A DNA stretch of 64,000 nucleotides from Paenibacillus aurantius (lineage in GTDB: Bacteria; Bacillota; Bacilli; Paenibacillales; NBRC-103111). A model generated the notes under the pieces. The model was not told the DNA's origin and did not search any database. It saw only the letters and a list, made by a program, of their open reading frames with translations. The position numbers were made by a program, and so were the translations under genes. Positions 1,956-47,127 of this stretch are shown here, one piece after another. The stretch lies in NCBI RefSeq assembly GCF_032268605.1, contig NZ_CP130318.1, positions 4,625,501-4,689,500 on the forward strand. The letters are read 5' to 3'. The first letter of the stretch is position 1. Each line of letters begins with the position of its first letter.

Positions 1956-3524
1956 TTATTTCTCCTCGGGCCAATGAAGCTCCACTCCATGCCGGACGAG
2001 GAGCTCCTGGTACGCACGGAGGTGGTTCGCCTCTTCCCGGACGTCATGAGGCCGGCAGTCGTTCAAGACCGCATAGGCTGCCAGATAACCCGCGGCTTCC
2101 CCGATGTTCCATTCGGTCGGATGAAGCCGGTAGCAGCCGTTGGTGACCTGGGTGGTCCCGATGTTTTTGCAGGCCGGCAGAAGATTCTTGACGCGGATGG
2201 GCAGCAGCGCCCCAAGCGGGATTTCGTAAGGATAGACCGGGATATAGATCGCCCGCTGGGTAACGGTCGTCGGATGCAGGTCGAGCGCATAGCTGCCCAC
2301 TCCGACGCTGTCCTCGTACCGGAGCGTACCGGCTTCCCCCCGCACCTCCATGCTGACGTCGTTCTCGGTAATCGTGTACACGGCCTTGATCCGCCGGGAT
2401 TCCCGGATATAAGGCGCCTTGGCGAGTCCGTCCTCCGTGCCCAGCACGTCGCCCCTCGGCCGGACCCCGGGATAGCCGCGGCCGCCGTCGGGGCGCGGGG
2501 CCTCCGTTTGCAACCAGTACAGAAGCGACAGGCTCAGCTGCCGGGCTCCATGCAGATGCTTCTCCCTCTCCTCCTCGGACACCCCGTAGATCGGGCCGAC
2601 GTAATAATCATTCTGCGGCCAGTTGACCAGCGTCACCGGTCCCTCGTACAAAGGCTCCGTGTAGATCGAGGGATCCACAATCTGCCGATAGTCCCACAAG
2701 GAGACGACGCCCCGATCGTTCGGAAACATCGTGTATTCCTTCAGCCGGGTGGAATCATGAGGATCGATCGCATTCCAGTTAAGCAGGGGCAGCGTGGAGA
2801 AGGAAGGGATGTAAGCCTTCCAGTAGTCGTACATCTCCGGCCGTTCGATGGTGAAGTCTCCGCCCTCAACATAATCGGCGGCAAAGACATGGGTGATGGA
2901 CTGCATGTCCAAAGGATCCGCCTCCCGGGCGGCATGAAGCTCCCCTGTTTCGCTGGACGCTTCGGCGCCCATGACGAACTCGACTCCCGCCAAGGGAAGC
3001 ACATCCCCGCATTCCGTCGCATCGAGGAAATAGGCGCCCGTCAGCTCCAGCCTCCTGCCCGTGCCCCGCTGCTCGACGGTGACGGACCGTACCGAGTCCC
3101 CTTCCGTCTCCGCCGCAACCGGCTTGTATTCATAAAGCACGGTGATTCTCCCGGAATTGACATAGGGCGCCAGCATGTTCTCCAGCACTTGGAGCGCGAC
3201 GCGCGGCTCATGGGCGAGCCGGCTCACCCAGCCTTTGCCGGGGTTCAGGTGGGGATTGTTCCGGGCTTCTTCCGTAAGCGGATAATGGTCGCGGTAGTAG
3301 GCCCGGACCCTCTCCCGGAATTCCCGGTAGCCGGCCGTGGAGCCGAACGACTCGATCCATCTATGCTCATCGGGCGGCACCCCCTGGCTCGTCAGCTGGC
3401 CTCCCAGCCAGTCGGTCTCTTCGGTCAGGATCACCTTCATGCCGGCCTTCGCGGCCGCCAGCGCCGAGGCGGTGCCTCCCAGCCCCCCGCCGATCACGAT
3501 CACATCCGCCTTCCGTTTCTCCAT
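1956..3524 (-). CDS. FAD-dependent oxidoreductase (FAD_oxidored family)
   Basis: The 522-residue product opens with the dinucleotide-binding motif VIVIGGGLGG (residues 8-17) and has TEETDWLGGQLTSQGVPPDE and a later FLDATECGDVLPLAG segment, features of the FAD_oxidored family. These flavoproteins often sit in polysaccharide-use loci; the substrate here is unknown. The start is taken at ATG 3524, preceded by AGGAGGG at a good distance; a longer reading from a TTG at 3542 would put the ribosome site inside the gene. No signal peptide is visible, so it should be cytoplasmic. It is the last gene of a minus-strand set with the RpiR regulator and DUF4127-NanE. Confidence 0.85.
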   Translation of the reverse strand: MEKRKADVIVIGGGLGGTASALAAAKAGMKVILTEETDWLGGQLTSQGVPPDEHRWIESFGSTAGYREFRERVRAYYRDHYPLTEEARNNPHLNPGKGWVSRLAHEPRVALQVLENMLAPYVNSGRITVLYEYKPVAAETEGDSVRSVTVEQRGTGRRLELTGAYFLDATECGDVLPLAGVEFVMGAEASSETGELHAAREADPLDMQSITHVFAADYVEGGDFTIERPEMYDYWKAYIPSFSTLPLLNWNAIDPHDSTRLKEYTMFPNDRGVVSLWDYRQIVDPSIYTEPLYEGPVTLVNWPQNDYYVGPIYGVSEEEREKHLHGARQLSLSLLYWLQTEAPRPDGGRGYPGVRPRGDVLGTEDGLAKAPYIRESRRIKAVYTITENDVSMEVRGEAGTLRYEDSVGVGSYALDLHPTTVTQRAIYIPVYPYEIPLGALLPIRVKNLLPACKNIGTTQVTNGCYRLHPTEWNIGEAAGYLAAYAVLNDCRPHDVREEANHLRAYQELLVRHGVELHWPEEK

Positions 3525-3558
3525 TCGGTTTCCCTCCTGCAACTGTTTAGTAAGTCTC

Positions 3559-3600
3559 GTGCCTTATCCGTTCAATGGCAAACATGAGTTACCCTCCATA
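3559..3600. repeat. GTGCCTTATCC element between FAD oxidoreductase and rpiR-like gene
   Basis: GTGCCTTATCCG at 3559-3570 is followed by a partial match to the second half of the element (CAAACATGAGTTACC). It separates the FAD oxidoreductase from the RpiR gene, in a gap of about 190 bp. Confidence 0.45.
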
Positions 3601-3713
3601 CGGTTCCTTACGAAATAGTTTCTGACGAATAGTCCCTTACCCATTGTCCATTCCTAATTTTTTCATACGGAAGGAAAATCCGGCCCCGCTCCCTTGCAGA
3701 CGGCTTCCTTCGG

Positions 3714-4550
3714 TTAATAGATTCGTTCAATTACGGCCTTCGCCGTCCGTTCCTTCATTTCCTTCGTCCACTCCGGCCTCTTCTCGGCCAAGCCCTGGCA
3801 GAGCAGGTCCAGCACGAACAGCTGGGCGATTTTGGCGGCCATCGAGCCTCCTTCTAAGGGCGACTCTTTACCCGCCGTCAAGAGAACGACATCCGCCACA
3901 CCGGTAATCGGAGACTTGGCGAAGTTCGTGATGGCGATTACCGACGCTCCGCTCTGCTTCGCCTTGGCAAGCATATCGTTCGTGTCGAGCGTGCTTCCCG
4001 ACACGCTGAAGCCGACAGCCACGTCCCCGGGGCGCATGGACATCGCGGCCATCATCTGCATATGGCTGTCCGCCACCGCTTCGGCGCGCCGCCCGATCCG
4101 CATGAACCGGTTTTTGGCGTCCAACGCGGTAATCCCCGATGCCCCCACCCCAAAAAATTGGACGTGGCCCGCCGCATCGATCAAGTCGACGGCCTTCTGC
4201 AGCCTGTCCTTGTCGAGCAGGCTGAGGCAGGTGTCGAGGGCTTGAACCGCGTGACGGTAAACGCCCCGGGCCGTTTCCTCTTCTCCGTTTCCGGAGTCCG
4301 GCTGATCCGGATTCTGGTACGCCTTGTCCTGGGCGAGCGCGAGCTTGAAGTCCTGATAGCCCTTGAAGCCGATTTTGCGGCAGAACCGCATAATGGTCGT
4401 TTCCCCGACCTCCGCGAATTCGGACAGCTCCGTGACCGAATGGTAGATGAGGTCTACGTTCCGCTCGAGAACGGCGTCGGCCACCTTCTGCTCCGACTTC
4501 GTCAGAGAAGGATAATAGCTATAAATCCGAGCCCTCACGTCCATCCGCAT
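3714..4550 (-). CDS. MurR/RpiR family transcriptional regulator (HTH_6 + SIS)
   Basis: The 278-residue protein has an N-terminal HTH_6 domain (about residues 1-77, with LSEFAEVGETTIMRFCRKIGFKG) and a C-terminal SIS phosphosugar-binding domain (about 125-255, starting near VQFFGVGASG). RpiR/MurR regulators sense phosphorylated sugars such as MurNAc-6-P or ManNAc-6-P. The coding region overlaps the end of the upstream DUF4127-NanE gene by 32 nt, so the two are co-transcribed and the likely effector is an amino-sugar phosphate handled by NanE. The start is ATG 4550 behind AAGGCGGGG; ATG 4544 is possible. The ligand is inferred from context. Confidence 0.88.
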   Translation of the reverse strand: MRMDVRARIYSYYPSLTKSEQKVADAVLERNVDLIYHSVTELSEFAEVGETTIMRFCRKIGFKGYQDFKLALAQDKAYQNPDQPDSGNGEEETARGVYRHAVQALDTCLSLLDKDRLQKAVDLIDAAGHVQFFGVGASGITALDAKNRFMRIGRRAEAVADSHMQMMAAMSMRPGDVAVGFSVSGSTLDTNDMLAKAKQSGASVIAITNFAKSPITGVADVVLLTAGKESPLEGGSMAAKIAQLFVLDLLCQGLAEKRPEWTKEMKERTAKAVIERIY

Positions 4551-6888
4551 TCCCCGCCTTTCGAATTAGCTCCGCATACCGGGCCGTCACCACCTGGGGC
4601 CGCGTAATCGCCGAGCCGACGACAACCGCGTAGGCGCCTTCGGCCATAGCCTGGACCGCCTCCTCGGGAGAGAAGATCCGCCCTTCGGCCAGTACCGGAA
4701 GGGTAAGTCGATCCGCCGCCCGCCGGATCAGGGCGAAATCGGGCTCCTCCTGCTGAGGAGAATACGGCGTATAGCCGGACAGCGTGGTCGACACGCAGTC
4801 CACTCCCAGGGAGGCGGCGTATTCCGCTTCCTCCAGGGTGGAGATGTCGGCCATCATCCGGATGCCCCGGCTCTTCATGTAAGCCGTCAGCCCTTCCAGC
4901 GTCTCCCCGCACGGCCGGGGCCGGCGGGTGGCGTCGAAGGCGATCATGTCGGCTCCGGCCTCGGCCAGCTCGTCGACCTCCCGGCTCGTCGGCGTAATAT
5001 AGACCTCGCATCCGTCGTAGTCCCTCTTGATGATGCCGATCACCGGCAGCCCGGTTGCCGCCTTGATGGCTCGGATGTCCTCCGGCCCGTTGGCCCGGAT
5101 GGCGGCCGCTCCTCCCTGCTTGGCGGCCTTGGCCATTTGGGCCATCGTAGAGGCTCCGTGCAGAGGCTCGTCAGCCAGCGCCTGGCAGGACACAATCAGC
5201 CGGCCCCGGAGCTGTTCGAACAGCGAGTCTCTTTCGGCGGGCGTCACGCTGATTTGCCCGGCCCTGTCAGCCCCGTATGCCCTGTCTGTCCCGCCGGCTT
5301 GCCTGGCCCCGTCTGCCCGGCCAGCCCGGCCGGCATCCGTCCGATCTTCTTGCTTCAGCGGCTGCCCAATCGGAACCGCCCGGACCGTCAGTCCGACCTC
5401 GAACATCCGGCTCCACGGCATCCAGCAGTCTTCGATTTCGATCCGGAACCGCTGGTCGGCCAAGTGCTCCTCCGCAAACTGCTCCAGCTCCCGGCGGACG
5501 ATCCGGGAGATTTCTCCTCGGCTGCCGTCGATGGAGAAATAGGTGTGCCCCAGCTCCTTGACGGCTCCATTGCTTACCCGGCGGCGGACGGAGGAGCAGT
5601 AGCCGGCATCCTCCACATGGCGCAGAGCCAGAAAATCGCGGTGAGCGCCGGTATCGCCGTACACCAAATAGAGCATACCTTGGGCGATGCAGGTGCCGAG
5701 GGTGTTCGAGCTCGTGTTCCAGCCGGCATATCCAGCCAGCCGGAACAGCATGTCCTTCTGGCGGAGCAGCTTCACCAGCTGCAGATCCGAGCCGTTCGCA
5801 TAGGCAATATCGGCAACGATGCACGGCTTGCCGAAGCGGCGCATGGCCATATCCGCGTATTCGACCAGCTCCACGAGATTGCGGAAGGCATCGTAGCCCG
5901 GATTAGGCTCATGCTGCACCACGGCTTCCCTCATGACATCCCCCGGCGTGTTGCAGAGAATGACGGCATCCGCTTCTCCGAGCGAGGAGGCCAGCATTCC
6001 CCCGGCCGCAAGAATTTGATACTTCAGGCTTTCATAGAACGGGCGGTCTTCATAGAGCGGGGTAAGGAACGGGCCTTGGACCCCCGCGAATTTCGGATAA
6101 AGAAGCGGCGTCCGGTTATGCATCCGGTTCACCATGCGCGACAAAAGCGTGCAGCCGACCTCGTCGGCTCCCGGGTACATGTACACCTTCTGCTCCACAT
6201 CCAGTTCCCTGATGCGCTGGCGGACCTCCTGCTGATCGAGGGCGGTCCAGCCGTAAGGAGCGGAATCGTCTTGGGGAACGATGAGGAAATCGATCGTTCC
6301 GTCGGCCGCATAGTCGAGCGCCAGGCGGTTCACTTCCCGATTGACCGCGCGGCGGTCCAAGTAATCATCCAGCACGCCGGGACCGGGCAGCCGCTGGTCG
6401 TGGCCGGCCAGCTCCGTCAGCTCCTCGCCGGAAGCGAGGCCGAGCTCTTTCTTGTGACGGAGGAAGCCGGTCCGGAAAATCTCCCGTCCCCAGTCACCAT
6501 AATAATCCGGCTCCTCGTCGTTCGAGGAGTACTGCGGGCAGCGCATGATCAGCTGGAACGCGTACAGGATTAAACGCGGGTTCTCTTCCTTCACCCGGCG
6601 GAGTCCTTCGAGCCTTGCGGCCGCTTCCTCTACCGTGTCGTGGTGAAGACGGGAAGGAATAATTCCCCCGTACAGAAGGGTATCCAGGGCGACAATGGCA
6701 CCGTCCGCCTCCTTCGCTTCCTCCAGAAACCAATCCCACAAACCATTGGTGTCGCCGGGCTGTTTTTTACGGCCCATCAGCTCCATACCGGGGCGAACCA
6801 GATGAAGGTCCGTGCGTGCGGCAAGCAGCGGGGGAAAGTCATAATTGCAGGGCCGCTCGTCGAGCGGAATGTAGATAATTTTCGGCAT
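4519..6888 (-). CDS. DUF4127 domain fused to N-acetylmannosamine-6-phosphate 2-epimerase (NanE)
   Basis: The 789-residue protein has three parts. Residues 1 to about 510 match DUF4127 proteins (PLDERPCNYDFP, YGGIIPSR, a PQDDSAPYG segment and ending near EIEDCWMPWSRMFEV). Residues about 515-548 are a low-complexity linker rich in R, A, D and G. Residues about 555-789 are a full NanE TIM barrel with LIVSCQALADEPLHG, the catalytic lysine in IIKRDY and LAEGR near the end. NanE converts ManNAc-6-P to GlcNAc-6-P. The DUF4127 role is unknown. NanE is usually a separate protein of about 230 residues, so the fusion is unusual. The RpiR gene overlaps its 3' end. Confidence 0.9.
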   Translation of the reverse strand: MPKIIYIPLDERPCNYDFPPLLAARTDLHLVRPGMELMGRKKQPGDTNGLWDWFLEEAKEADGAIVALDTLLYGGIIPSRLHHDTVEEAAARLEGLRRVKEENPRLILYAFQLIMRCPQYSSNDEEPDYYGDWGREIFRTGFLRHKKELGLASGEELTELAGHDQRLPGPGVLDDYLDRRAVNREVNRLALDYAADGTIDFLIVPQDDSAPYGWTALDQQEVRQRIRELDVEQKVYMYPGADEVGCTLLSRMVNRMHNRTPLLYPKFAGVQGPFLTPLYEDRPFYESLKYQILAAGGMLASSLGEADAVILCNTPGDVMREAVVQHEPNPGYDAFRNLVELVEYADMAMRRFGKPCIVADIAYANGSDLQLVKLLRQKDMLFRLAGYAGWNTSSNTLGTCIAQGMLYLVYGDTGAHRDFLALRHVEDAGYCSSVRRRVSNGAVKELGHTYFSIDGSRGEISRIVRRELEQFAEEHLADQRFRIEIEDCWMPWSRMFEVGLTVRAVPIGQPLKQEDRTDAGRAGRADGARQAGGTDRAYGADRAGQISVTPAERDSLFEQLRGRLIVSCQALADEPLHGASTMAQMAKAAKQGGAAAIRANGPEDIRAIKAATGLPVIGIIKRDYDGCEVYITPTSREVDELAEAGADMIAFDATRRPRPCGETLEGLTAYMKSRGIRMMADISTLEEAEYAASLGVDCVSTTLSGYTPYSPQQEEPDFALIRRAADRLTLPVLAEGRIFSPEEAVQAMAEGAYAVVVGSAITRPQVVTARYAELIRKAGNADGREGSDL

Positions 6889-7260
6889 GCGGGATATCCG
6901 GGAGCAGGCGGCAGGGTTCCGCCTCTCATCAGCCTCGTAAGGCTCCGGCCTCCTTCTATTAGAATGGGGAAATAGGCAATCTCTTTACCGCCATTCTAGC
7001 ACGGAAAGGAATGATTCTCCACAAATAAATATATGGGCGGAATTTTTCTCCGAACAGTGGTCAAGAAGCCGCTCCCCTCTTAACGCTTAACAAAAGGGTT
7101 CGGGCTATCGCCCCCTCCCCCTCCAAATGGGCTTGTAACCCAATCACATATCCCCCGTTCTCGTGAATATATTTGATAACAAGCTATCCGACTTTCCTCC
7201 GGCCCGGCGGACGGGTCCGGTGTCCCTTAGCGTCAGCGCCATTCTTCAGGAGGTGTAGCC
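6889..7260. other. Divergent intergenic region
   Basis: This 372-bp gap separates the divergent nanE operon and yhbH. Apart from the candidate -10 at 6993-6998 and the AGGAGGTG ribosome site at about 7249-7256 I see no gene. An AT-rich stretch at 7160-7190 could hold a sporulation promoter for yhbH, but I found no clear sigma-E match. Confidence 0.4.
6993..6998 (-). promoter_or_regulatory. Candidate extended -10 for the DUF4127-nanE operon
   Basis: On the minus strand the sequence reads TGCTAGAAT, an extended -10, about 105 nt upstream of the ATG at 6888. No good -35 is present at normal spacing, so this is a tentative call. Confidence 0.35.
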
Positions 7261-8403
7261 ATGACGAAACCCGTATTTATCGTATCCCGCGAGGACTGGT
7301 CCCTGCACCGTAAAGGTTACCAGGACCAAACCCGCCATCAGGAAAAAGTGCGCGAAGCGATCAAACAGAATCTTCCTGATCTCGTCACCGACGAAAGCAT
7401 CATCCTCTCCAACGGACGGCAGATTATCAAAATTCCGATCCGCTCCCTCGACGAATACCGGTTCCGCTATAACTACAGCAAGTCGAAGCACGTCGGCCAG
7501 GGAGACGGAGACTCCCAGGTAGGCGACGTGCTGGGCAGCGAGCCGGCCAAAGGTCCCGGCAAAGGCGAAGGCGCGGGCAGCCAGCCCGGAGAGGATTACC
7601 TGGACACGGAAGTAAGCGTGGAAGAGCTTCAGGCGATGCTCTTCGATGAGCTGGAGCTTCCGAATCTCCAGGAGAAGGACAAGAAGCAGCTGCACACCTC
7701 CGAGGTGGTGTTCACAGACATCCGCAAGAAGGGAATCATGTCGAACATCGACAAGAAGCGGACGATTCTCGAGAACCTGAAACGCAACGCCAACGCAGGC
7801 CAGCCGGGGATTCACGGCATTTCCCCCGACGATCTGCGCTTCAAGACGTGGGAGGAGATCCACAAGCCCCATTCCAATGCGGTGATCATCGCGATGATGG
7901 ATACGTCCGGCTCCATGGGAAGCTTCGAGAAATACATCGCACGCTCGTTCTTCTTCTGGATGACCCGCTTCCTCCGCACGAAGTACGAGAACGTCGAGAT
8001 CGTTTTCATCGCGCATCATACGGAAGCGAAGGAAGTGACGGAAGAGGAATTCTTTAACAAAGGGGAAAGCGGCGGAACGATCTGCTCCTCGGCTTACCAG
8101 AAGGCGATCGATATCATCGACTCCCGGTACTCCCCTGCCATGTACAACATCTACCCGTTTCATTTCTCGGACGGAGACAACCTCACTTCCGACAACGAGC
8201 GCTGCGTCAAGCTGATCGGGCAGCTGATGGAGCGCACGAACATGTTCGGCTACGGGGAGGTCAACCAGTACAACCGGAGCAGCACGCTCATGTCGGCGTT
8301 CAAGCATATCAAGAACCCCAAATTCCAGTACTGCATCATCCGGGAAAAAGGGGAAGTGTATGACGCCTTGAAGGCCTTTTTCTATAAACCGGAGGCGGGG
8401 TGA
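7261..8403 (+). CDS. yhbH: YhbH/YeaH sporulation protein (DUF444, VWA domain)
   Basis: The 380-residue product is a typical YhbH: an N-terminal [22 protein letters not shown] segment, a charged glycine-rich stretch (about 80-120) and a von Willebrand A-like domain with the metal site motif DTSGSMGS (D214, S216, S218). In Bacillus the protein is made in the mother cell; in many bacteria it works with SpoVR/YcgB and the kinase PrkA. Here spoVR follows directly, but no prkA is in the window. AGGAGGTG lies just upstream of ATG 7261, which fixes the start. Confidence 0.93.
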
Positions 8404-8407
8404 GCCT

Positions 8408-9844
8408 ATGCAGTCCCATGAAATCAAAGAGCTGGAGCGGGCCATCGAGGAAATAACGGAGATCGCCCAAGGCTTCGGGCTGGACTATTACGAGATGCGC
8501 TACGAAATCTGCCCCTCGGACATCATCTACACCTTCGGCGCCTACGGAATGCCCACCCGCTTCAGCCACTGGAGTTTTGGAAAAACCTTCCATAAGATGA
8601 AGACCCAGTACGATTTTGGTCTGAGCAAAATTTATGAGCTCGTCATCAACTCGAACCCGTGCTACGCGTTTCTTCTGGACGGCAATTCGCTTATCCAGAA
8701 CAAGCTGATTGTCGCGCATGTCCTCGCCCACTGCGATTTCTTCAAGAACAACATGCGCTTCTCCAATACGAACCGCAACATGGTGGAGAGCATGTCGGCA
8801 ACCGCCGAGCGCATCCGCCAATATGAAATCGAGCACGGCACGGAGAAGGTCGAGCAGTTTCTCGATGCCGTGCTCGCCATTCAGGAGCATGTCGACCCCG
8901 GCCTCATCCGGCCGTACCGCCGCGGCGAACGCACGACTCCCGACAGGATAAAGAGCCGGGAGGCGGCCGCCGAGTCCGGCAGCGAGCCGCAGACCGGCTA
9001 CGAGGACCTGTGGTCCCTCGAACGCGATACCCACTCCAAGCCCGAGCCGATCACCGTGCGTAAATTTCCCTCCCAGCCGGAGAAGGACCTGCTGTGGTTT
9101 CTCGAAATGCATTCCCCCGAGCTGGAGGACTGGCAGCGGGACATTCTGACCATGATGCGCGACGAGATGCTGTATTTCTGGCCGCAGATGGAGACCAAGA
9201 TCATGAACGAGGGCTGGGCCTCGTACTGGCACATCCGCATTATGCGCGAGCTCGACCTGACGCCGGAGGAAACGGTGGAGTTCTCCAAGCTGAATTCCTC
9301 GGTCGTCCAGCCGTCCAAGAGCAGCCTCAATCCCTATTACCTCGGCTTGAAAATCTTCGAGGACATCGAGAAGCGTTGGGATAAGCCCACTCAAGAGGAG
9401 CAGGAGCGGTTCGGCCGCAGGCCCGGCCAGGGCCGCGAGAAGATGTTCGAGGTCCGCGAATTCGACTCGGATACCTCGTTCATCCGCAGCTACCTGACGA
9501 AGGAGCTGGTAGAGGACCTCGATCTGTATATTTTCGAGAAGAAGGGCACCGACTGGAAGATCACCGACAAAACCTGGATGAACATCCGCGACCAGCTGGT
9601 GTACTCCCGCGTCAACGGGGGCTTCCCTTACCTGGTGGTAGACAACGGGGACTACAAGCGGCTCGGAGAGCTGTACCTGAAGCATTCCTTCGAGGGGATG
9701 GAGCTTGACCTGAAATACCTGGAGCGCACCCTCCCCTCGGTTCAGAAGCTCTGGGGCAAGCCGGTTCACCTGGAAACGATCGTCGAGGATAAGAAAGTGG
9801 TATTCACATACGACGGGAAGAAGCACCACCGCCAGTTTATTTAG
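8408..9844 (+). CDS. spoVR: SpoVR family protein (stage V sporulation protein R)
   Basis: The 478-residue protein is full length for SpoVR and carries family segments such as [36 protein letters not shown] and [10 protein letters not shown] (only short parts quoted from a conserved whole). SpoVR is involved in spore cortex formation in Bacillus; its biochemical activity is not known. It starts 4 nt after the yhbH stop codon, with GGAGG in the end of yhbH as ribosome site, so the two are one operon. A 14-bp tandem duplication spans its stop codon. Confidence 0.93.
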
Positions 9845-10554: not shown

Positions 10555-10965
10555 GTGAAAAGTCTTGGCATAGTGAGAAAATTGGACCGGCTGGGCCGCA
10601 TCGTTATTCCGAAAGAATTGCTGGAGATTCATGATATCCGCATCCGGGATCCTTTGGAAATTTTCACGGATGACAAGCGGATCGCCCTGCGGAAGTACCG
10701 GTCGACGGACTGCATCTTCTGTGAAAATTATGACAACAACATCTATTTCAAATCGTATTTCATTTGCGCCTCCTGCCTTAAGCAGATCCGGCCCTCCGAG
10801 GCGCCCGGAAAACCCGTCTCCTCCCGCCCGTCGTCCAAGCCTACCGCGCTGGACCGATTCCGGGAAGCGAAGGAGAAATATCCCGACGCCTCCCAGAAGC
10901 AGCTTGCCGAAATCCTTGGCATTACCCAAGGCCGGGTGAGCCAGCTGAATAAAGAACTGAAGTAA
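10555..10965 (+). CDS. AbrB/SpoVT-type transcriptional regulator with Cys4 cluster and C-terminal HTH
   Basis: The 136-residue protein starts with an AbrB swapped-hairpin domain (KSLGIVRKLDRLGRIVIPKE, residues 2-21, extending to about 50). It is followed by C53-x2-C56 and C71-x2-C74, a likely zinc ribbon, a proline/serine linker (about 80-97) and a helix-turn-helix-like tail (QKQLAEILGITQGRVSQLNK). AbrB-type proteins are transition-state regulators that bind DNA as tetramers. Canonical AbrB has about 95 residues and lacks the extra HTH. The start is GTG 10555 behind GGGGGATC. Targets are unknown. Confidence 0.88.
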   Translation: MKSLGIVRKLDRLGRIVIPKELLEIHDIRIRDPLEIFTDDKRIALRKYRSTDCIFCENYDNNIYFKSYFICASCLKQIRPSEAPGKPVSSRPSSKPTALDRFREAKEKYPDASQKQLAEILGITQGRVSQLNKELK

Positions 10966-11128: not shown

Positions 11129-12205
11129 ATGAAGTCCATCACCCGGCAGGCCGGCATGCTCCTGATGTCCCAAGCCGAGGAGCTTGCGGAGGAAGTGACC
11201 GCCCGGCAATATTCCCGGCAGCCTGATCTGACGGCCCGCTTCGGAGCCTCCGGACGGATAAGAACCAGGCAGGACTCCGTTTATAACCTGCAGTATTTGG
11301 CCGAAAGCGTCCTGGTCGACAGCCCCTCCTTGTTCGTCCATTATATCGCCTGGCTCAAAACGCTTCTGGACGGGTACCAGGTTTCCGTGGAGGAGCTGCG
11401 GGTTAACCTCCAATGCATGGAGGAGGTCATTCAGGCCCACGTGAAGGAACCCGAACGCGGGACCCTGCTGGATTACTTGCGGCTGGGACGCCAGCAGTTG
11501 ACAGCGGCGGAGACTCCCTCCTCCTTTCTTAAGGAGGACCAGCCCCTCGCGGAGGAGACCAAGCTTTACCTACAAGCCCTGCTTAACGGGGACCGCCGGT
11601 CCGCAAGTCAGCTGATCACCCGGTTGGTCGAGGACAAGGTCCCGCTGAGAGACTTGTATTTGTATATTTTCCAGACCACCCAGCATGAGATCGGCCGCCT
11701 GTGGCAAACCAACCGCATCCAAGTAGCCCAAGAGCATTTCTGTACGGCCGCCACCCAGATGATCATGTCTCAGCTGTATCCTTATTTGTTCACAAGCCCC
11801 CGCAAAAGCTATACACTCGTCTCCGCCTGCGTCGGCAAGGAAATGCATGAGGTCGGCCTGCGGGTGCTCACGGACCTGTTCGAGCTGGAGGGCTGGGATA
11901 CTTACTACCTGGGCGCGAACGTGCCTGCTCGAAGTGTGATTCATTCGCTTATCCACCATAAGGCGGACGTGATCGCCATCTCCGCCACCATGACGTACCA
12001 CGTCCATCTCGTGGAAGAGCTCATTTCCCAAATCCGGGGAAACCCCGAATGTGCGGGAGTCCGAATTATCGTTGGCGGCCTGCCCTTCAATATCGATTCC
12101 AAGCTGTGGAAGAGGGTGGGAGCCGACGGGTGGGCCTCGGATGCCGAAGAAGCCGTCCGGGTAGCGGAAGGCCTGCTTCAAGGCCAGACGGCCCAAACGG
12201 AATAA
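11129..12205 (+). CDS. Cobalamin (B12)-binding domain protein
   Basis: The C-terminal part of this 358-residue protein (about 225-345) is a B12-binding Rossmann fold with EMHEVG (H240 is the axial-ligand histidine of the D/E-x-H-x-x-G motif), the following YYLGANVP and a GGLPF loop. Residues about 140-220 form the helical B12_2-type cap. The N-terminal 120 residues are helical and have no recognised enzyme or HTH domain, so the protein is more likely a sensor than a methyltransferase. It is followed after a 27-nt gap by a hybrid kinase and probably shares its transcript. Light or cobalamin sensing is plausible for stand-alone modules of this kind but unproven here. Confidence 0.85.
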   Translation: MKSITRQAGMLLMSQAEELAEEVTARQYSRQPDLTARFGASGRIRTRQDSVYNLQYLAESVLVDSPSLFVHYIAWLKTLLDGYQVSVEELRVNLQCMEEVIQAHVKEPERGTLLDYLRLGRQQLTAAETPSSFLKEDQPLAEETKLYLQALLNGDRRSASQLITRLVEDKVPLRDLYLYIFQTTQHEIGRLWQTNRIQVAQEHFCTAATQMIMSQLYPYLFTSPRKSYTLVSACVGKEMHEVGLRVLTDLFELEGWDTYYLGANVPARSVIHSLIHHKADVIAISATMTYHVHLVEELISQIRGNPECAGVRIIVGGLPFNIDSKLWKRVGADGWASDAEEAVRVAEGLLQGQTAQTE

Positions 12206-12232
12206 TGCGACCGACTAAAGGAGCTAATGAAC

Positions 12233-13924
12233 ATGGAGTCTCATGCCGAGTGGCATTCGGAAATAGCCAAGCTGAGGGAAACCGTCCGTCAGCTGTCCGA
12301 CCGGGTCATCCGGTTTCAGGAACAGGAGGACCGGCTGCTTTCGGAGCTATCGGAAATGAACAACGAATTGATTACCGTTCAGAGAATGCTCGCCAAAACC
12401 AATCTGGATCTTAAGAAATCCCAGAAGAAAGCGGTGGAAGCGGAGCTTGCCAAGGGATCGTTCCTCTCGATGATGAGCCACGAGGTCCGTTCCCCTATGA
12501 ACGGCATCCTGGGGATGACCGAGCTGCTCATGCATGCGGAGCTCCATGCCGAGCATCGCAAGAAAGTGATGCTGATCGAGGAATCCGCCAAGCTTCTGCT
12601 GACGATCGTTAACGATATTCTCGATATCACCAAGATCGAAACCGGTGAAGTGAAGCTGAACGAGGAGCCCTTCGATCTTCGCAAGCTGCTTCATCATATG
12701 GTGGAGCTGATGAAGCCGAACGCCGCTTCCCGGACCATCCTTCTTCCCGTCTGGGACAGCCGGATTCACCCGATTCTGATCGGCGATGCGGTGCGCATCC
12801 GTCAGATTCTGCTCAATGTGATCATCCACTCCACCCGCCTGTCCGGCAGCGGGACCCTTACGGTCCGGGCTCTGCTGGAGCGGGCTGAGAAAGGCAAACA
12901 GGCCATCCGCATCGAGGTGTCGGAGCCCGCAGGAGAACGCCGTCCCCTCCCGGCGCCCTCTGGGCAAGAAGGAAGCCATCTCGGGGTGCGCATTGCTTCC
13001 CGGCTCCTGCAGCTGATGGGCGGTTCCCTGAACGTGCATGGAGAGGACGGGAAAGGCCCTCTGGTGTCCTTTCAGCTGACCCTACCCGAAGCCCGGGCCG
13101 AGGGAAGCCGGACCGGCCTCTACGGGGAGGGTCCGGAAGAAGCATCCCCCTTCGCGCTCCGGCTGACCGAGTGGTTCGACGAGGAGACGCGGTCCCTTCC
13201 CATTCTTCTTGCGGTGGACAATGCCATCAACCGGCAGGTCGTTCATATGCAGCTGACCCGGATGGGCTTCTCCCAGGTTGACGTCGTCCAAGACGGGGAG
13301 TCCGCCGTCCAGCGATATGCCCGCCGGACCTATTCGCTTATCGTAATGGACCACCTTCTCCCGACGGCGCACGGCCTGGAGCCCGCCAAACTCATCCGGG
13401 AGGAAAGCGCACGCCGGAAGCAGCCGCCCGCTCCGATGGTGTGCATCAGCGCCAACCCCGGCCCCGATTTCACCGCCCACTACCGGGAAAGCGGCTTTGA
13501 CGATTGCATGGCGCTGCCGATTACGCTGGAGCAGCTGGAAGCGATGCTCCTGCGCTGGCTTCCGGCGGAAGGGCCGGCACCTTCCCGTGTGCTTAGCCTG
13601 CCGATTATCCAGGACCTGAAGAAGCTCGACGAATCCGGCGTTCTTCTCCGCAGCCTTCTCAACCAGTTCAAGCAGATGGCTCCCGGGCTTATGGACCGGA
13701 TGAAGCATTCGGTCCGGGACAAGGATGCGGCCGAGCTGCAGAAAACGGCCTACATGCTGAAATCGAGTGCGCTTGGCTTGGGACTCGTCAGCTTGTCGGC
13801 CACCTTCTCCCAGCTCGAAAGCATGGGGGTAGCCGGAGTGGTTACGCCCGAAGCCGAAGCGCTGCTGGCCGGCCTCTGGGAGGATTACGAGGCCGCATGC
13901 CGGGCGCTTGAGCAGTACTTGTAA
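12233..13924 (+). CDS. Degenerate hybrid histidine kinase-response regulator-HPt protein
   Basis: The order is a coiled coil (about 5-65), HisKA with the normal phospho-acceptor (H83 in SMMSHEVRSPMNG), an ATPase region, a receiver and an HPt domain, 563 residues in all. Several key residues are missing. The N-box asparagine is His (H199 in LNVIIHSTRLS). The G1 box DxGxG is absent and the ATP lid is very short. The receiver keeps an aspartate (D373) but its conserved lysine is Leu (L428 in ALPIT). The HPt histidine is Tyr (Y507 in AYMLKSSALGLG). It may work as a scaffold or pseudokinase. The start is placed at ATG 12233, 9 nt from AAAGGAG; ATG 12227 is an alternative. Confidence 0.88.
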   Translation: MESHAEWHSEIAKLRETVRQLSDRVIRFQEQEDRLLSELSEMNNELITVQRMLAKTNLDLKKSQKKAVEAELAKGSFLSMMSHEVRSPMNGILGMTELLMHAELHAEHRKKVMLIEESAKLLLTIVNDILDITKIETGEVKLNEEPFDLRKLLHHMVELMKPNAASRTILLPVWDSRIHPILIGDAVRIRQILLNVIIHSTRLSGSGTLTVRALLERAEKGKQAIRIEVSEPAGERRPLPAPSGQEGSHLGVRIASRLLQLMGGSLNVHGEDGKGPLVSFQLTLPEARAEGSRTGLYGEGPEEASPFALRLTEWFDEETRSLPILLAVDNAINRQVVHMQLTRMGFSQVDVVQDGESAVQRYARRTYSLIVMDHLLPTAHGLEPAKLIREESARRKQPPAPMVCISANPGPDFTAHYRESGFDDCMALPITLEQLEAMLLRWLPAEGPAPSRVLSLPIIQDLKKLDESGVLLRSLLNQFKQMAPGLMDRMKHSVRDKDAAELQKTAYMLKSSALGLGLVSLSATFSQLESMGVAGVVTPEAEALLAGLWEDYEAACRALEQYL

Positions 13925-13940
13925 CTTAAGTTCAAACCGC

Positions 13941-13980
13941 AAAGGCCTGTCCGGCATTTCTTCGACCGGACAGGCCTTTT
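13941..13980. terminator. Bidirectional terminator between convergent signalling genes
   Basis: AAAGGCCTGTCCGG (13941-13954) pairs with CCGGACAGGCCTTTT (13966-13980). The long perfect stem has T-runs on both strands and serves the hybrid kinase and the CheB-CheR gene. Confidence 0.92.
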
Positions 13981-13984
13981 GGCG

Positions 13985-16900
13985 TTACTTGAGAATGGAT
14001 TGGAACAGTTCCGAACCCGGCTGGGCCAAGGAGCGGTGCCCGCCTTCGATGTGCAGGGGAAGCAGGATGTCGATGGTCGTTCCCTTGTTGACCTCACTCT
14101 GAAAACGCATCTGGCCTTGATGATTCTCTATGATCTGGTGGCAGATCATGAGGCCGAGGCCGGTGCCTTTCTGCTTCGTGGTATAGAACGGCTCGCCGAT
14201 CCGGTCCAGCTGCTCCTTCGGAATGCCGCAGCCTTTGTCGACGATGCGGATCATGACCTTGCCGTAAACCGCATTGCGGATCTGAATGAAGATTTGGCCC
14301 CCGTACGGCGTCGCCTCGATCGCGTTCTTCAGCAGATTGACGAACATCTGCTTGATCTGGTTCTCGACACAGTTCATGTGCACGCTTTCGAGTTCACACT
14401 CCACCACGAATTCTATATTTTTGAGGATAGCCTGGGAGCTGAGCAGCATCACGACGTTCTGGAGAATAACCCGGAGGTCCTTCGTCGCGAATTCGAAAAT
14501 TTGGGTTTTGGCGAGCAGGAGCAGCTCGTTGATGATCAGTTCCATGGAATCCACCTCAGCGGAAAGAATCTCCATGTATTTCTCCTGATCGCCTTGCTTC
14601 GTGTTTAGAAGCTTGAGAAAGCCCTTGACCGAGGTCAGCGGGTTGCGGATTTCGTGAGCGATTCCCGAGGCCAGCTGGCCGGCCACGGAGAGCATTTCGG
14701 ATTTTCTCAGCAGCCCCTCCGTATGCTTCTTCTTCGTGATGTCCTCCGCTACCTTAAGGTAATGCACCACTTCTTTCTTTTCGTTGATGACGGGAAGAAC
14801 GGTGGCCGATTCCCAGTAAATTCTTCCGTCCTTGTGCCGGCCCTGCAGCTCTCCCTTCCACTTGCTGCCCGAGCCCACCTTCTCCCAAAGGATGTCATAG
14901 ACCTCCGTCCCCCCCTCCCCGCGCTCCAGCGCCCGGGCCTCCGTTCCGATGACTTCCTCCCGGGAATAGCCGGTAATATCCGTGAAGGCGGGGTTGACGT
15001 ATTCGATCTTCATCTGCTTGTCCGTAATCATGACCACGGACGGGCTCTGCTCGATGGCGAGCGAAAGCTTGCTCAGCTGGCTGTTGATCGACTTCAGCTC
15101 GGTAATGTTGACGAGGGTCATGATGATGCCTTTGATGTAGTGATCCACGGTACGGTAAGGAGAAATTTTGAGCAGGTACCAGTTCTTCTGGTTGCTCTGC
15201 ACCTCCCGCTCAATGGGAACGAGCGTGCGCAACACTTCCTCGATATCGGGCACCATGCGATCGTAAACCAGATTATGCGAGATATGCATGATCGGGCGTC
15301 CTACGTCGACCTCCATCAGGTTGATGACATCCATGACGTTCGGGGTAAACCGCCGCACACTCAGATCGATATCCAGGAAGATGGTTCCGATGTTGGAGGC
15401 ACTCAGGAAATTGTTCATATCGCTGTTGACTTCGATCAGCTCGTGAATCTTGGACTGGAACTCCGAGTTGACGGTCACGAGCTCCTCGTTAACCGAGCTC
15501 AGTTCCTCGTTCGTGCTCTGCAGCTCCTCGTTCGACGCGATCAGCTCTTCGTTCGTGGCCTGGAGCTCTTCGTTGGACGTCTCCAGCTGCTCGATCACCG
15601 TCTGCAGCGTTTCCTGCGTCGTAACCAGCTCCTGCTCCAGATCCAGAATGAACTGCTTCTCCTTCAGGTCGAGATCGGGAGGGGGGGAGGAGGCAGGTGC
15701 CAGCTTCTCCAGCTCCCTGTCCGGCAGAAAGGCGATCAGGATGTACTTGTCGTTCGTCTTTTCCGTCCGGAACAGTTTGACCTTCAACAAGATGCGCCGA
15801 GAAGCCCCGTTCTGCTCCATGACGATGTTCTTGTAGATGACCTCCGACTTCTCCTTGCGGGCTTTGTGAACGGCCGTGCTGAGCGCAACGGATAGGCTTT
15901 GGGGAACCATCTTGAACAGGTTGTGGGAAAATTTCCCGCGCGGCACGTTCAGGAAGGCATTCACATCCCCGGTCGTGTGCACGACATCGTGATTGTCGTC
16001 GATAATGATACAGGGAGGAACGAACTCCTCGATCAACGATTGGGATAGATCGTCCAGCTTGCGGAACAGCTTCGAATCCTCCATAATCTGCGAGCCCTGC
16101 AGCGTCTGCCCCGGAAGGGTGACCGGTTCGCTGATCTCCACCATGTTGAGCGGCCTGCGCTGGATGACGTTCCGCTTCGAGAAAATGTTCCACTTGTTGT
16201 GTAGCGGAGCGTAAAGCTTCCCGAGTTCTCCGATCGTTTCACTTGCTCCAAGAAACAGAAAGCCGCCGGTAGCGAGTGAAAAATGAAACAGCGAAAGCAC
16301 CTTCTTCTGCAGAATGGGCTGAAAATAGATCAGCACATTCCGGCAGGTGACCAGATCGATCGAGAGAAACGGAGGATCCTTCACGAGATTATGATGCGCG
16401 AACACAATCATTTTGCGGAGTTCCTTGGAGACCTGATAGCGGTCCCCTACCTTGACAAAATATTTCTCCAGCCGATCCGGCGTCACATCGGCCGCGATGC
16501 CGGCGGGATACATGCCAAGGCTTGCCAAATCGAGCGCATCCTTGTCCAGGTCGGTGGCAAAAATTTTGATCGCCGGCTTCCGGCCGATCGATTCCATGTA
16601 TTCCCTGAGCAGAATGGCGATGGAATAGGTTTCCTCTCCGGTCGAGCAGCCGGCCACCCATATGCGGATCTCCTGGTTCTCCTTGTGAAAGATCCGGGGC
16701 ATCACCTCTTCCTTCAAAACCTCGAAAGCCTCTTTGTCGCGGAAAAACCGGGTCACGTTAATCAGCATCTCCTTCCACAGTACGGATGCTTCCGAAACAT
16801 CGCCAAGCAGCATCTGGTAGTAATCGTGTAGGTCGCCGATGTGATGAATGGCCATCCTCCGTTCAATTCGACGAAGAATACTATTCTGTTTATATTGGGT

Positions 16901-17602
16901 GAAGTCAATATGGAATTTCTGATGCAAAAGCCGGAATATCTTCTGAATGGTTTCTTCGCTCGTCTGCGCTCTCGTGACCAGCTGGTTCGGTCCGGCCGAC
17001 TGGCAGTAGTTCATGAACCGGACCAGCTCGCCGCCCATCTGCTGAGGGGGGAGGATGCAGTCCACGAGCCCCGTGGAAATGGCGCAGTTCGGCATCCCGT
17101 CGAATTGGGCCGAGCCCGCTTCCTGAACAAGAATCAGGCCACCCGCATCTTTGATCGCCTTGATGCCCCGCGACCCGTCGCTTCCGGTGCCGGACAGAAC
17201 GATGGAAACCGAATGTTCCCCGGAGTTTTTGGCAAGCGACCGGAAAAAGACATCGATGGGAAACACCAGAGGACTTCCCGGCGTTATCGATTCGAGGTGA
17301 AGAGCGTCATTCTCTATCGTCATGAGCTTGCCGGGAGGAAGGACATACACGTGGTCCGCCTTGACTTTGTTTCCTTCGGCGGCCTGCACAACCGGCATGG
17401 ACGTAACCTTGGACAATATATCCGCCATCAGGCTGCGGTAATCGGGGGACAGGTGCGGGACAACGACATAGGAAGCTCCGCTATCCGGGTCAAGGTGCGT
17501 AAAAAAAGAATGGAGAGCTTCCATTCCGCCAGCCGAGGCACCAATTCCTACCACGTATAACGGTTTGCGGTGTTCCGTGGAGCCATTCGTGCTGTTATTC
17601 AT
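13985..17602 (-). CDS. CheB-CheR-PAS-histidine kinase fusion protein
   Basis: The 1205-residue protein combines a CheB methylesterase domain (about 14-200; GIGASAGG with the catalytic serine and SGTGSDG), a CheR methyltransferase (about 215-480; [24 protein letters not shown]), a linker with PAS-like segments, a long heptad coiled coil of repeated S/T-NEEL units (about 655-710), two PAS domains, HisKA ([15 protein letters not shown]) and HATPase with intact N (LLKNAIEA), G1 (DKGCGIP) and G2 (GTGLGL) boxes. Such CheB/CheR-PAS sensors are known in many bacteria and are thought to couple chemoreceptor-type methylation to a kinase. No chemoreceptor or response regulator is next to it. The start ATG 17602 follows GGGGAGATG. 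Confidence 0.93.
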
Positions 17603-43967: not shown

Positions 43968-45596
43968 GTGGACATAAAAGTGATAAGAACCGTACTGATT
44001 CCCTTTATTTGCGTCTTCGTGAGCTTCGCTTCCTTAATTCTGGATAAGAGCCCGAGGCTGTGGCTGCTCTCCGCCTCCGTGGTTCTTTTGTCAACGGCTG
44101 TCATTTATCACAAGCGGATTCCTTATGCTTTCTGCTTCCAGCTGCTGTTTCTCGCTCTTTTTCATTGGGCCTCGAAGCTAAACTGGTCGGAGTCCCTCTA
44201 TTTTCTTCTCATTATCCTCAACATGCAGAAGAAGCCGACCTTCCTGAAGGTGATTCCGTATGCCCTCGGGTTTGCTCTGCTGTATACTTTTATCCGTCTC
44301 TCCTACGTTCCACTGACGAAGTACAATCTCCTCGTCTCCTTCTATGACATTCTGTCCTTCGTGATCATCGTGCTGTTCGTCCAGTACGTCTTCAATACCG
44401 AATGGCAGAAGAGGCAGCTTCAGAAAAGAAACCAGTTTCTCACCAATCACGACCCTCTCACCCGGCTCTACAATTACGACGGCTTCGTGCATTCCGTCAA
44501 CCAGCTCATCCGCAAAAAGAATTCCCCGTTTATCCTTCTTCTGCTGGACTTTCAGGATTTCCGCAGCGTCAATCACGTCAGCATCAGCAGCGGGAACGAG
44601 CTTTTGATGAATACGGCGCTCCTGCTGCAGACTTATTTTCCGAACGCGGTGTCCATCTCCCGCTATGCCGGCGACCGGTTCGCGCTCGTCCTGCCGGAGA
44701 AGGAGAACACAGCCGTCTGGATCCGCGAGCTGCTGGATTCCAAAACGCTCGGCTACGAGGTCACGTACAGCCTAACCCATTACCCCCGGGAGGCGTCGTC
44801 TCCCCAGTCAATGATTTCCCTTGCGGAGGACCGCCTGTTCCAGGAGAAAAGGAAGCTGTGGCTGAAGCGGGAGGAAGACCGGTTCCGGACGGAGAAGCTG
44901 AAGATTGTGGGTGAGCTCGCAGCGGGAATGGCCCACGAAATCCGCAATCCCCTCACGACGATGAAGGGCTTCATTCAGCTTGCCAAAAGCCAGAATTATA
45001 ACATCCAGCCCTGGTTCGACATCATCATGAACGAAATTCGCCGGATGAGCGAGCTGACGGCGGAATTTCTGCAGTTCTCGAAGCCCCATATCAGCAACAT
45101 GAAACCGGAGGCGGTGAACGGCTGCCTGGAACGGGCGTGGTTCCTGACGGAATCGCAGGCTGTTTCCAAGGGGCACCTTATTCATCTTGCCAACGTCGAC
45201 GATACCGTCCTCGTGCACATGGACCGGGACAAAATCATCCAGGTGCTGCTCAACCTGATCCGCAACGCCCTTGAGGCCATGGACGAGCCCGGTCATATTT
45301 ATATGGAGGCACGGGCCGAAGGTAGCGACATTGTAATTGCCATCGAGGATACGGGAAGCGGCATACCGGACAGTGAGCTCGGCGACATCTTTACCCCGTT
45401 CTATACGACCAAGGAAAATGGAACCGGCCTCGGCCTCTCCGTCTGTTACAAAATTATCCAGGATCACGGAGGCTCCTTGACCGTGCGCAGCAAGCTGGGA
45501 GAAGGCTCGGTCTTCATCATCCGGCTTCCGCTGGTTACGCTGCAGGAAATCCCCGGCGAATCTCCGGCTGTCGCGCTTCCCGTTGACGAGGAATAG
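43968..45596 (+). CDS. Membrane sensor kinase with degenerate GGDEF domain
   Basis: The 542-residue protein has about five membrane helices (residues 5-140), a GGDEF-like domain (about 155-305), then HisKA ([20 protein letters not shown]) and HATPase with intact N (NLIRNALEAM), G1 (DTGSGIP) and G2 (GTGLGLSV) boxes. The GGDEF motif itself reads AGDRF (RYAGDRFALV), so diguanylate cyclase activity is unlikely and it may only bind GTP or c-di-GMP. The kinase half resembles KinB/KinD-type sporulation kinases. The start is GTG 43968 after GGGAG. No response regulator is adjacent, so it is an orphan kinase. Confidence 0.88.
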   Translation: MDIKVIRTVLIPFICVFVSFASLILDKSPRLWLLSASVVLLSTAVIYHKRIPYAFCFQLLFLALFHWASKLNWSESLYFLLIILNMQKKPTFLKVIPYALGFALLYTFIRLSYVPLTKYNLLVSFYDILSFVIIVLFVQYVFNTEWQKRQLQKRNQFLTNHDPLTRLYNYDGFVHSVNQLIRKKNSPFILLLLDFQDFRSVNHVSISSGNELLMNTALLLQTYFPNAVSISRYAGDRFALVLPEKENTAVWIRELLDSKTLGYEVTYSLTHYPREASSPQSMISLAEDRLFQEKRKLWLKREEDRFRTEKLKIVGELAAGMAHEIRNPLTTMKGFIQLAKSQNYNIQPWFDIIMNEIRRMSELTAEFLQFSKPHISNMKPEAVNGCLERAWFLTESQAVSKGHLIHLANVDDTVLVHMDRDKIIQVLLNLIRNALEAMDEPGHIYMEARAEGSDIVIAIEDTGSGIPDSELGDIFTPFYTTKENGTGLGLSVCYKIIQDHGGSLTVRSKLGEGSVFIIRLPLVTLQEIPGESPAVALPVDEE

Positions 45597-45723: not shown

Positions 45724-47127
45724 ATGAGCCATAAACCTGATCGGATCACCTTTCAAACGCGCTTTACGGAAATGGTCGCCGAGCTGCGCCGGGAAATTGT
45801 AACCGGTATCCGCCCCAAAGGAGACTATCTTCCTTCTGAGCTGACTTTAGCCGACCAATACAAGCTGAGCAAGAAGTCCGTACGCAAGGCTTTGGATATT
45901 CTCGTCGAGGAAGGCTTGATCACCAAGGTTCCCCGGGTGGGCAACCGGATCACCCCTCCCGATTCCCGCCAGACCGTTTCGCTTAAGCTGGGCTTGTACC
46001 CTTCTCTCGAGGGAGAAACGAGAATCTCCGAGCTGCTGGACCGGTTCCGGGCCGCCTACCCCTATATTCAGGTCGAAACGGTAGCGCTTCCTTATACCCA
46101 TTATCCCCATTCGGTGAAGGGCTACCTGGATAACCAGTGGCTGGATGTGATCTCCCTCAACAATTGGAATTTCCTTGAGACGATGGAGAATGATGCCCTC
46201 GACTACTTTGAGCCCCAGGAGCCCAGACCGGGCCATTACCCGTTTCTTCCCCCGGTTTTTACCGAGGGAGGCCGGATGTACGCCCAGCCCTTTATTTTCT
46301 CTCCCGTCATCCTATGCTATAACAAAAGCCTGCTCCGCCAGCTGGGGATCGCAGAGCCGGACAGCAGCTGGTCGTGGGACGACCTGAGGGCCTCCTCCTC
46401 CCGCATACGCCACGAGACGGAGCGGTTCGGCTTCTACGCCCACATTTCCTCCACCAACCGCTTTCCGATCGTCCTTCTGCAGGAGGAGTTCCGGTTCTCC
46501 TCTCCAGGCTCCGGATCCCCCTACGAGGATCCCCGTCTATGGGAAAGCCTGCGGGGCTTCCGCGACCTGATTTACAGCCAGGGGCTGTTCCCTTCGTTCC
46601 TGTCCGAGACGAACGCGGATGCGGAGAAGCTCTTCGCCCGGGAGAAGGCCGCCATGATCATGACGACCTACTACGGCTTGAAGTATTTGCGCGACCTGCC
46701 CTTTGCCTATGACCTCGCCCCTCTTCCCTATAACAAGAATGCGAAGACGCTGCTTCTGGTAACAGGGCTCGCGGTCAGCCGGCAGTCGGCTCATAAGGAC
46801 GCGGCCCGTCTGCTCGTGGACTTCCTGACCTCGGAGGAATCCCAGCTGGACATTAGGAAGCATACAATGACCTTGCCGGCGCACAAGGCTTCGGCGGAAT
46901 GGACGGGACCGGAGGAATTCGAACGGCCTTCCCGCTTTCACCTGTACCGGGAGATCATCCCCACCTTCAGCCGGTTCGAGGACTTGAATCTCCCCGTAAC
47001 CGAGCTGAGCCGCCTCCGCAACGAGCTGAACCTGTTCTGGTCCGGCCTGGAGGAGCCCGAGCCGGTCATGCAGCGCTTGAAGGAGCAGTACGACCGGAAG
47101 GTGGGGCAGGCGGCGGGATTGTCCTAG
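45724..47127 (+). CDS. GntR regulator fused to an extracellular-type solute-binding domain
   Basis: The 467-residue protein has a GntR winged HTH at the N-terminus (about 10-80, LPSELTLADQYKLSKKSVRK) and a type-1 periplasmic-binding fold in the rest (about 90-460; LKLGLYPSLEGETRISELLD, SPVILCYNKSLLRQLGI, EKAAMIMTTYYGLKYL). There is no signal peptide, so the sugar-binding domain works as a cytoplasmic effector domain. Fusions of this kind are known from Paenibacillus and relatives, usually beside a sugar ABC importer; none is adjacent here. ATG 45724 follows AAGGAGA. Confidence 0.9.
   Translation: MSHKPDRITFQTRFTEMVAELRREIVTGIRPKGDYLPSELTLADQYKLSKKSVRKALDILVEEGLITKVPRVGNRITPPDSRQTVSLKLGLYPSLEGETRISELLDRFRAAYPYIQVETVALPYTHYPHSVKGYLDNQWLDVISLNNWNFLETMENDALDYFEPQEPRPGHYPFLPPVFTEGGRMYAQPFIFSPVILCYNKSLLRQLGIAEPDSSWSWDDLRASSSRIRHETERFGFYAHISSTNRFPIVLLQEEFRFSSPGSGSPYEDPRLWESLRGFRDLIYSQGLFPSFLSETNADAEKLFAREKAAMIMTTYYGLKYLRDLPFAYDLAPLPYNKNAKTLLLVTGLAVSRQSAHKDAARLLVDFLTSEESQLDIRKHTMTLPAHKASAEWTGPEEFERPSRFHLYREIIPTFSRFEDLNLPVTELSRLRNELNLFWSGLEEPEPVMQRLKEQYDRKVGQAAGLS

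Follow-up and report, generated by a model that had tools for sequence, protein, structure and literature searches.

Does a hybrid histidine kinase in which most of the phospho-relay residues have been replaced still serve its cell, or is it a gene on its way out? We explore this question for a gene of Paenibacillus aurantius that lies in a stretch of 64,000 nucleotides, here called the window, examining in turn its own sequence, the sensor gene that precedes it, its relatives in the order and the selection acting on it. An initial annotation had read the gene as the product of selection for a non-catalytic scaffold or dominant modulator and not as a decaying gene; it did not mention a light-sensor gene in the same operon or an intact second module in the genome.

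The kinase frame (12227/12233-13924) is open from end to end. Residues are counted from the ATG at 12227, but the start at 12233, giving a product of 563 amino acids, is preferred, since GGAG at 12220-12223 is better spaced for it; the kinase frame of a sister strain also starts at the codon matching 12233. The domain order HisKA-HATPase-receiver-HPt is present, with HisKA, HATPase_c and Response_reg above the Pfam cut-off and Hpt below it (Table 1). HATPase_c reaches only 29.5 bits (1.1e-6), compared with 1.9e-31 in a paralogue from the same genome. Beyond the kinase gene, the fold of 13928-13985 has an energy of -30.8 kcal/mol (z -5.7 against shuffles), although its hairpin is absent from the pattern-scan list. 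The gene convergent with the module (13985-17602, minus strand) encodes a CheB-CheR-PAS-PAS-HisKA-HATPase fusion of 1205 amino acids with canonical Pfam scores. No convincing promoter was found for the sensor-kinase module, and single-sequence structure models of its two proteins were poor (mean pLDDT 38.5 and 45.8).

Table 1. Coordinates of the sensor-kinase module in the window, of its domains and of the second module in the same genome.
Feature	Position	Strand	Basis or remark
Photocobilin-like light-sensor gene, 358 aa, module gene 1	11129-12205	+	Pfam B12-binding 1.2e-22, B12-binding_2 2.7e-15
N-terminal globin/phycobiliprotein-like (putative bilin-binding) region, residues 11-117	11159-11479	+	Pfam Phycobilisome E 0.001, below cut-off
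Four-helix B12 cap domain, residues 147-216, G189xxW192, E202-H203 (Wx9EH)	11567-11776	+	Pfam B12-binding_2; motif read; conserved columns
B12-binding Rossmann domain, residues 229-343, E238-x-H240, G262xxxP266	11813-12157	+	Pfam B12-binding; motifs read
Degenerate hybrid histidine kinase, module gene 2, 27 nt after sensor gene	12233-13924	+	Intact frame, Pfam, alignments
N-terminal coiled-coil-like segment, residues 3-74	12233-12448	+	Nothing else precedes HisKA; sensor domain absent
HisKA dimerisation/phospho-acceptor domain, residues 75-140, His85 kept (12479-12481)	12449-12646	+	Pfam HisKA 1.1e-15
Degenerate HATPase, residues 186-286: His201, Glu233/Ala235, His251, ATP lid cut	12782-13084	+	Pfam HATPase_c 1.1e-6
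Degenerate receiver, residues 326-441: Val330, Asp375 kept, Lys to Leu430	13202-13549	+	Pfam Response_reg 9.9e-13
Degenerate HPt, residues 477-545, acceptor His to Tyr509 (13751-13753)	13655-13861	+	Pfam Hpt 21.3 bits, cut-off 24.6
Terminator-like hairpin at the end of the module, flanked by two convergent genes	13940-13981		Fold of 13928-13985
Second module	G000:C1, sensor 1512363-1513400, kinase ~1513448-1515529		Canonical kinase

Other genes of the window also carry joined domains. A small protein (10555-10965, plus strand) has an AbrB/MazE-like N-terminus, four Cys in two pairs in the middle and a sigma-region-4-like C-terminus; a single frame at 4519-6888 (minus strand) holds DUF4127 together with a full NanE (N-acetylmannosamine-6-phosphate epimerase) domain; the product of 43968-45596 (plus strand) has GGDEF followed by HisKA and HATPase_c, an unusual order; and 45724-47127 (plus strand) fuses an extracellular solute-binding-protein domain to a GntR-type DNA-binding domain.

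The best solved relatives of the sensor are the photocobilin entries 8j2x/8j2w (2.9e-32) and 8j2y (2.8e-26), ahead of CarH, and there is a weak alignment between its residues 52-106 and the C-terminal portion of 8j2x. Photocobilins, or photoglobins (SasPcob, 8j2w/8j2x; AbDPcob, 8j2y), share its B12 cap and Rossmann domains, the Wx9EH motif and the axial His, and have a globin/phycobiliprotein-like region, whose putative counterpart in the window sensor is N-terminal and weakly recognised. Among photocobilins the B12 domain is reported at the N-terminal end in some forms and at the C-terminal end in others, and regulation is reported to work by contact between proteins (PMC10979010). In the window sensor the B12 domain is C-terminal, chromophore binding is putative and the output is a separate hybrid kinase gene; the characterised photocobilins either stand alone or carry a fused diguanylate cyclase.

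At the level of motifs, the CarH-type light signature consists of GxxW, EH, GxxH and GxxxP (PMC11796333). The window sensor has GxxW, EH and GxxxP; GxxH is not literal (K237-E-M-H240, with Gly at 236), but the Gly and His columns at this site are conserved in the sensor family. The CXQD motif, named for photoglobins in PMC10151467, was not found in sensor residues 1-130, where the sole Cys, Cys96, is followed by M-E-E. In an alignment with 93 other proteins of at least 340 amino acids, out of 104 loci with a sensor match, the sensor keeps 80 of the 83 family-invariant columns and its three deviations are conservative. It is a candidate for binding AdoCbl and biliverdin and for responding to light. 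Heme oxygenase (PF01126) was not found in the window genome, in a search whose control detected PF01126 in 3 of 14 known genomes, so the supply of biliverdin is unexplained.

This pairing of sensor and kinase is not peculiar to the window. Across 392 genomes of the order, a search that scored three candidates per genome, so that weaker extra copies could be missed, gave 110 kinase matches in 108 genomes at E<=1e-65: the window kinase, that of its sister strain, and 108 others that include second copies from the same two genomes. The locus L078, from the same genome as L153 (G306), was left out of the site-table, conserved-column, region-identity, dN/dS-pair and locus counts. At 96 of 109 loci, at least 85% of a photocobilin lies in one frame just upstream of the kinase, making sensor-kinase the standard order; a looser count of any upstream sensor match gave 104 of 110. 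Of the 13 loci that fail the strict count, six have no match (L107, L126, L137, L143, L145, L149), two have the sensor split over two frames at 69-96% coverage (L057, L116), two reach 75% coverage (L089, L093) and three reach 11-27% (L055, L071, L085). Side by side with canonical-site kinases, the genomes G245, G228 and G135 (L066, L093, L089) have photocobilin matches with internal stops, the reverse of the state seen in the window. Our literature searches turned up no description of photocobilin-like sensors paired with hybrid kinases; a 2022 photoglobin paper (10.1016/j.csbj.2021.12.022) may have one.

The window genome and its sister are exceptional in carrying the module twice. Photocobilins at E<=1e-40, with at most five candidates scored per genome, occur in 99 of the 392 genomes, 97 with one copy and these two with two copies; within the taxonomic family, kinases at E<=1e-65 occur in 11 of 104 genomes, again with two copies only in this pair. 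The paralogous kinase (G000:C1:1513793) is 38% identical to the window kinase, is canonical at its catalytic sites and carries about 105 more residues ahead of HisKA, in which no Pfam family exceeds the cut-off; in such long-form kinases (e.g. L056, G000:C1:1506500-1522500, 6949-9030) these residues may form an additional input domain. The sister genome has its second sensor split over two frames. Kinase and sensor trees, made quickly and without bootstrap, do not join the two modules in the way a recent duplication would: the second copy falls among long-form kinases from other genera, and the window kinase sits on its own stem of about 2.1 changes per site, with 0.30 for the stem of its sensor. 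The kinases of G034 and G100 also have a long stem (1.52) with canonical sites, which means that a long stem alone is no proof of lost catalysis.

What, then, has the window kinase lost? Every replacement listed in the initial annotation is found in the alignment: the HisKA His (His85) is kept, the N-box Asn is His201, the G1 box is missing (Asp to Glu233, Gly to Ala235, second Gly deleted), the receiver Lys is Leu430 and the HPt His is Tyr509, in a frame with no stop or frameshift in either strain. The losses go further than that list. The F box has also gone, as has most of the ATP lid, leaving 19 residues between the G1 and G2 sites where the 108 others have 31-34; the first G2 Gly is His251; and one acidic residue (Glu/Asp) of the receiver is Val330, the other being kept. 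Thus the N, G1, F and G2 boxes of the ATP site all depart from the canonical pattern, the receiver set of acidic pair, Asp and Lys is incomplete (Val330, Leu430), and the HPt lacks its His. The product is predicted not to bind ATP and, judged by its sequence, should be unable to work as a normal kinase or relay.

Among the other 108 kinases, the HisKA His, N-box Asn, G1 Asp and Gly, first G2 Gly, receiver phospho-Asp and HPt His are each kept in 108, and the receiver Lys in 107. These canonical kinases (G007, G025 and 106 others including the paralogue) have the domain order of the window kinase and in most cases likewise an upstream sensor; they keep all catalytic sites except in L126. The window's set of losses occurs in 2 of the 110 kinases, the window and its sister, and in none of the other 108. 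Of the 92 columns with at least 95% conservation in the family, each of these two proteins departs from the family residue at 30, and no other member does so at more than 9; on this ground chance was rejected. The sister strain, G062, is the only other genome of the species compared, and it carries every one of the changes, which excludes base-calling or sequencing error. Its assembly has broken frames in neighbouring genes, probably sequencing faults; the kinase and sensor genes are not among them.

The alignment of orthologues proposed in the initial annotation finds the changes conserved in the sister strain, and the set in none of the 108 other kinases. Canonical orthologues, which the initial annotation had named as evidence against its reading, are indeed the rule, as all 108 keep most sites; this confines the change to one lineage and does not in itself show a lack of function. 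Separately, the kinase of L126 (G272, 2984-4693) is a second, independent case of partial erosion, with receiver Asp to Val, Lys to Asn and second G2 Gly to Ala; it has no upstream photocobilin gene and is 88% identical to L106, which keeps the receiver Asp and Lys.

The window kinase still keeps the receiver phospho-acceptor Asp375, Ser408, the second G2 Gly, the HPt Lys, His85 and Glu86. Three of these (His85, Glu86 and Asp375) could serve a phosphate sink or phosphatase, either with an active kinase phosphorylating His85 in trans within a mixed dimer, or with dephosphorylation of a partner's receiver by the HisKA helices; RetS is reported both to siphon phosphate from GacS and to dephosphorylate it (PMC12189002). 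We nevertheless consider this quite unlikely for the window kinase, as its receiver has lost the Lys and an acidic residue, and a His conserved over so short a time proves little. Moreover, the Thr of HxE/DxxT, a phosphatase motif, is Ser in the window kinase, as it is in 5 of the 108 others.

Whether the altered product is maintained can be read from the two strains, since they share all losses and the differences between them therefore arose afterwards. Over 564 codons, dS is 0.102, dN 0.022 and dN/dS 0.218 (bootstrap 0.12-0.37), a comparison of two genomes of one species that counts 28 nonsynonymous differences and 40 synonymous ones. For this pair of genomes, dN/dS is 0.096 in the sensor gene and 0.055 in the paralogous kinase, a quarter of the value for the window kinase, and across the family's 38 other close pairs it ranges from 0.041 to 0.297 with a median of 0.129, placing the window pair second highest of 39. 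Purifying selection on the window kinase after the loss is clear, but at its weakest end. The dN/dS test that the initial annotation had proposed accordingly gave a value not near 1, and its view that the gene is not decaying stands as regards decay in one strain only: with all changes shared by the sister and a ratio of 0.22, strain-specific decay was rejected. Nor does the gene look like a pseudogene, given open frames in both strains and the same ratio.

A slower decay is harder to set aside. The second module may have made the window kinase dispensable, so that catalysis was lost and the gene is drifting with a frame not yet broken; the restriction of the losses to genomes with a second module, the very long stem and a dN/dS four times that of the paralogue all favour this. 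The eroded kinase of L126, with no neighbouring photocobilin, an open frame and a dN/dS of 0.124 to its relative, illustrates that an open frame and a low ratio can coexist with eroding sites. We still regard slow decay of the window kinase as unlikely: its post-loss ratio has an upper bound of 0.37, far from 1, neither strain has a stop or frameshift, the sensor gene of the same operon is fully conserved, and at least six catalytic features were lost before the strains split and then held unchanged.

Conservation is uneven along the protein. The median identity to the family stays close to that of three canonical baselines in the coiled coil (0.48 vs 0.46-0.54) and HisKA (0.49 vs 0.55-0.61), and falls well below them in HATPase (0.30 vs 0.44-0.48) and receiver (0.36 vs 0.48-0.51). 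Between the two strains, the N-terminal coiled coil and HisKA (139 codons) hold 1 of the 28 nonsynonymous differences and the rest of the kinase 27, with none in codons 2-66; this depletion has a Fisher p of 0.004 by sites but is not significant by the nonsynonymous:synonymous ratio (p 0.13), which is lower still in 4 of the 38 other family pairs. The HATPase and HPt parts have a dN/dS of about 0.24, and the receiver and HPt frames are kept, as would be expected if the sensor and pseudokinase had turned, with no kinase partner, to an unrelated protein contacted through the altered receiver/HPt end. Such a new function is highly improbable in our view: the receiver and HPt are less conserved than the N-terminal part, and there is no conserved neighbouring candidate target. 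Indeed, no conserved neighbour was seen by eye across nine genomic contexts, and hence no output regulator can be named.

We conclude that the window kinase is probably, if with appreciable doubt, a pseudo-histidine-kinase that selection has kept as the partner of the B12 light sensor and that acts by protein contact. A role as scaffold or dominant modulator, as first proposed from the gene alone, is plausible. The ancestor would have been an active hybrid kinase of the kind that regularly accompanies photocobilin-like sensors in Paenibacillus and its relatives. Redundancy from the second module, with its canonical kinase, may have let the window kinase lose catalysis quickly: the HPt acceptor, ATP binding through the N, G1, F and G2 boxes, and receiver switching, the last by replacement of the Lys and of an acidic residue. 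Conservation meanwhile persisted in the sensor and, within the kinase, in the coiled coil at its N-terminus and the HisKA dimer domain, and selection then held the product. Light would alter the state of the sensor, which would bind or release the coiled coil/HisKA part; since the kinase itself lacks a sensor domain, this part alone can receive the signal. The target of the pseudokinase may in turn be an active kinase or a regulator, reached by protein contact, for example in a mixed dimer with the intact paralogue. With catalysis gone and the dimerising, signal-receiving part kept, contact is the plainest way for it to work.

There are published precedents for such a mode of action. RetS of Pseudomonas aeruginosa is a hybrid kinase that modulates another, GacS, by heterodimerisation (PMC12189002), and RetS chains also figure among the best matches of the window kinase to solved structures (1.6e-31). 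Unlike RetS, the window kinase would take its input from a separate B12 light sensor, has lost far more catalytic motifs and has a partner that is putative. DivL of Caulobacter lacks the HisKA His, whereas the window kinase keeps this His and has lost the ATP site, receiver and HPt. PMC12189002 presents DivL as a catalytically inactive kinase that switches another kinase, CckA. With its motif loss and its retention by selection, the window kinase resembles modulators of the RetS/DivL kind, and may like them control a partner. A further parallel is a ChrS pseudokinase of Corynebacterium glutamicum, in which the ATPase domain is lost and a paralogous kinase is still present, as in the window genome; it differs in being a laboratory-evolved frameshift (PMC9491836). 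The ChrS pseudokinase gave a stronger effect than deletion, in dependence on the paralogous kinase HrrS, and two-hybrid tests of truncated ChrS gave no significant evidence for heterodimers (PMC9491836).

The intact paralogue is the natural candidate partner for the window kinase, though no sequence feature marks it out: co-adaptation was not seen, the paralogue ranking 90th of 108 in the coiled coil and 25th in HisKA by identity to the window protein. A more specific form of the contact reading, which we put forward tentatively as possible but not likely, is a light-gated pseudokinase, in which the B12 sensor of the window sets the output of the other module through mixed dimers, so that two light sensors would feed one relay.

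To our knowledge, few worked cases of pseudo-histidine-kinases are known. The loss described here is recent and complete, taking the ATP site, receiver switch and HPt together, and can be dated to one lineage. With an intact paralogue and an intact sensor, the likely input, in the same genome, the role of a kinase free of catalysis would be testable with light as the switch. More broadly, the module suggests that hybrid kinases are widely paired with photocobilin-like sensors, in the Paenibacillus-type arrangement described here.
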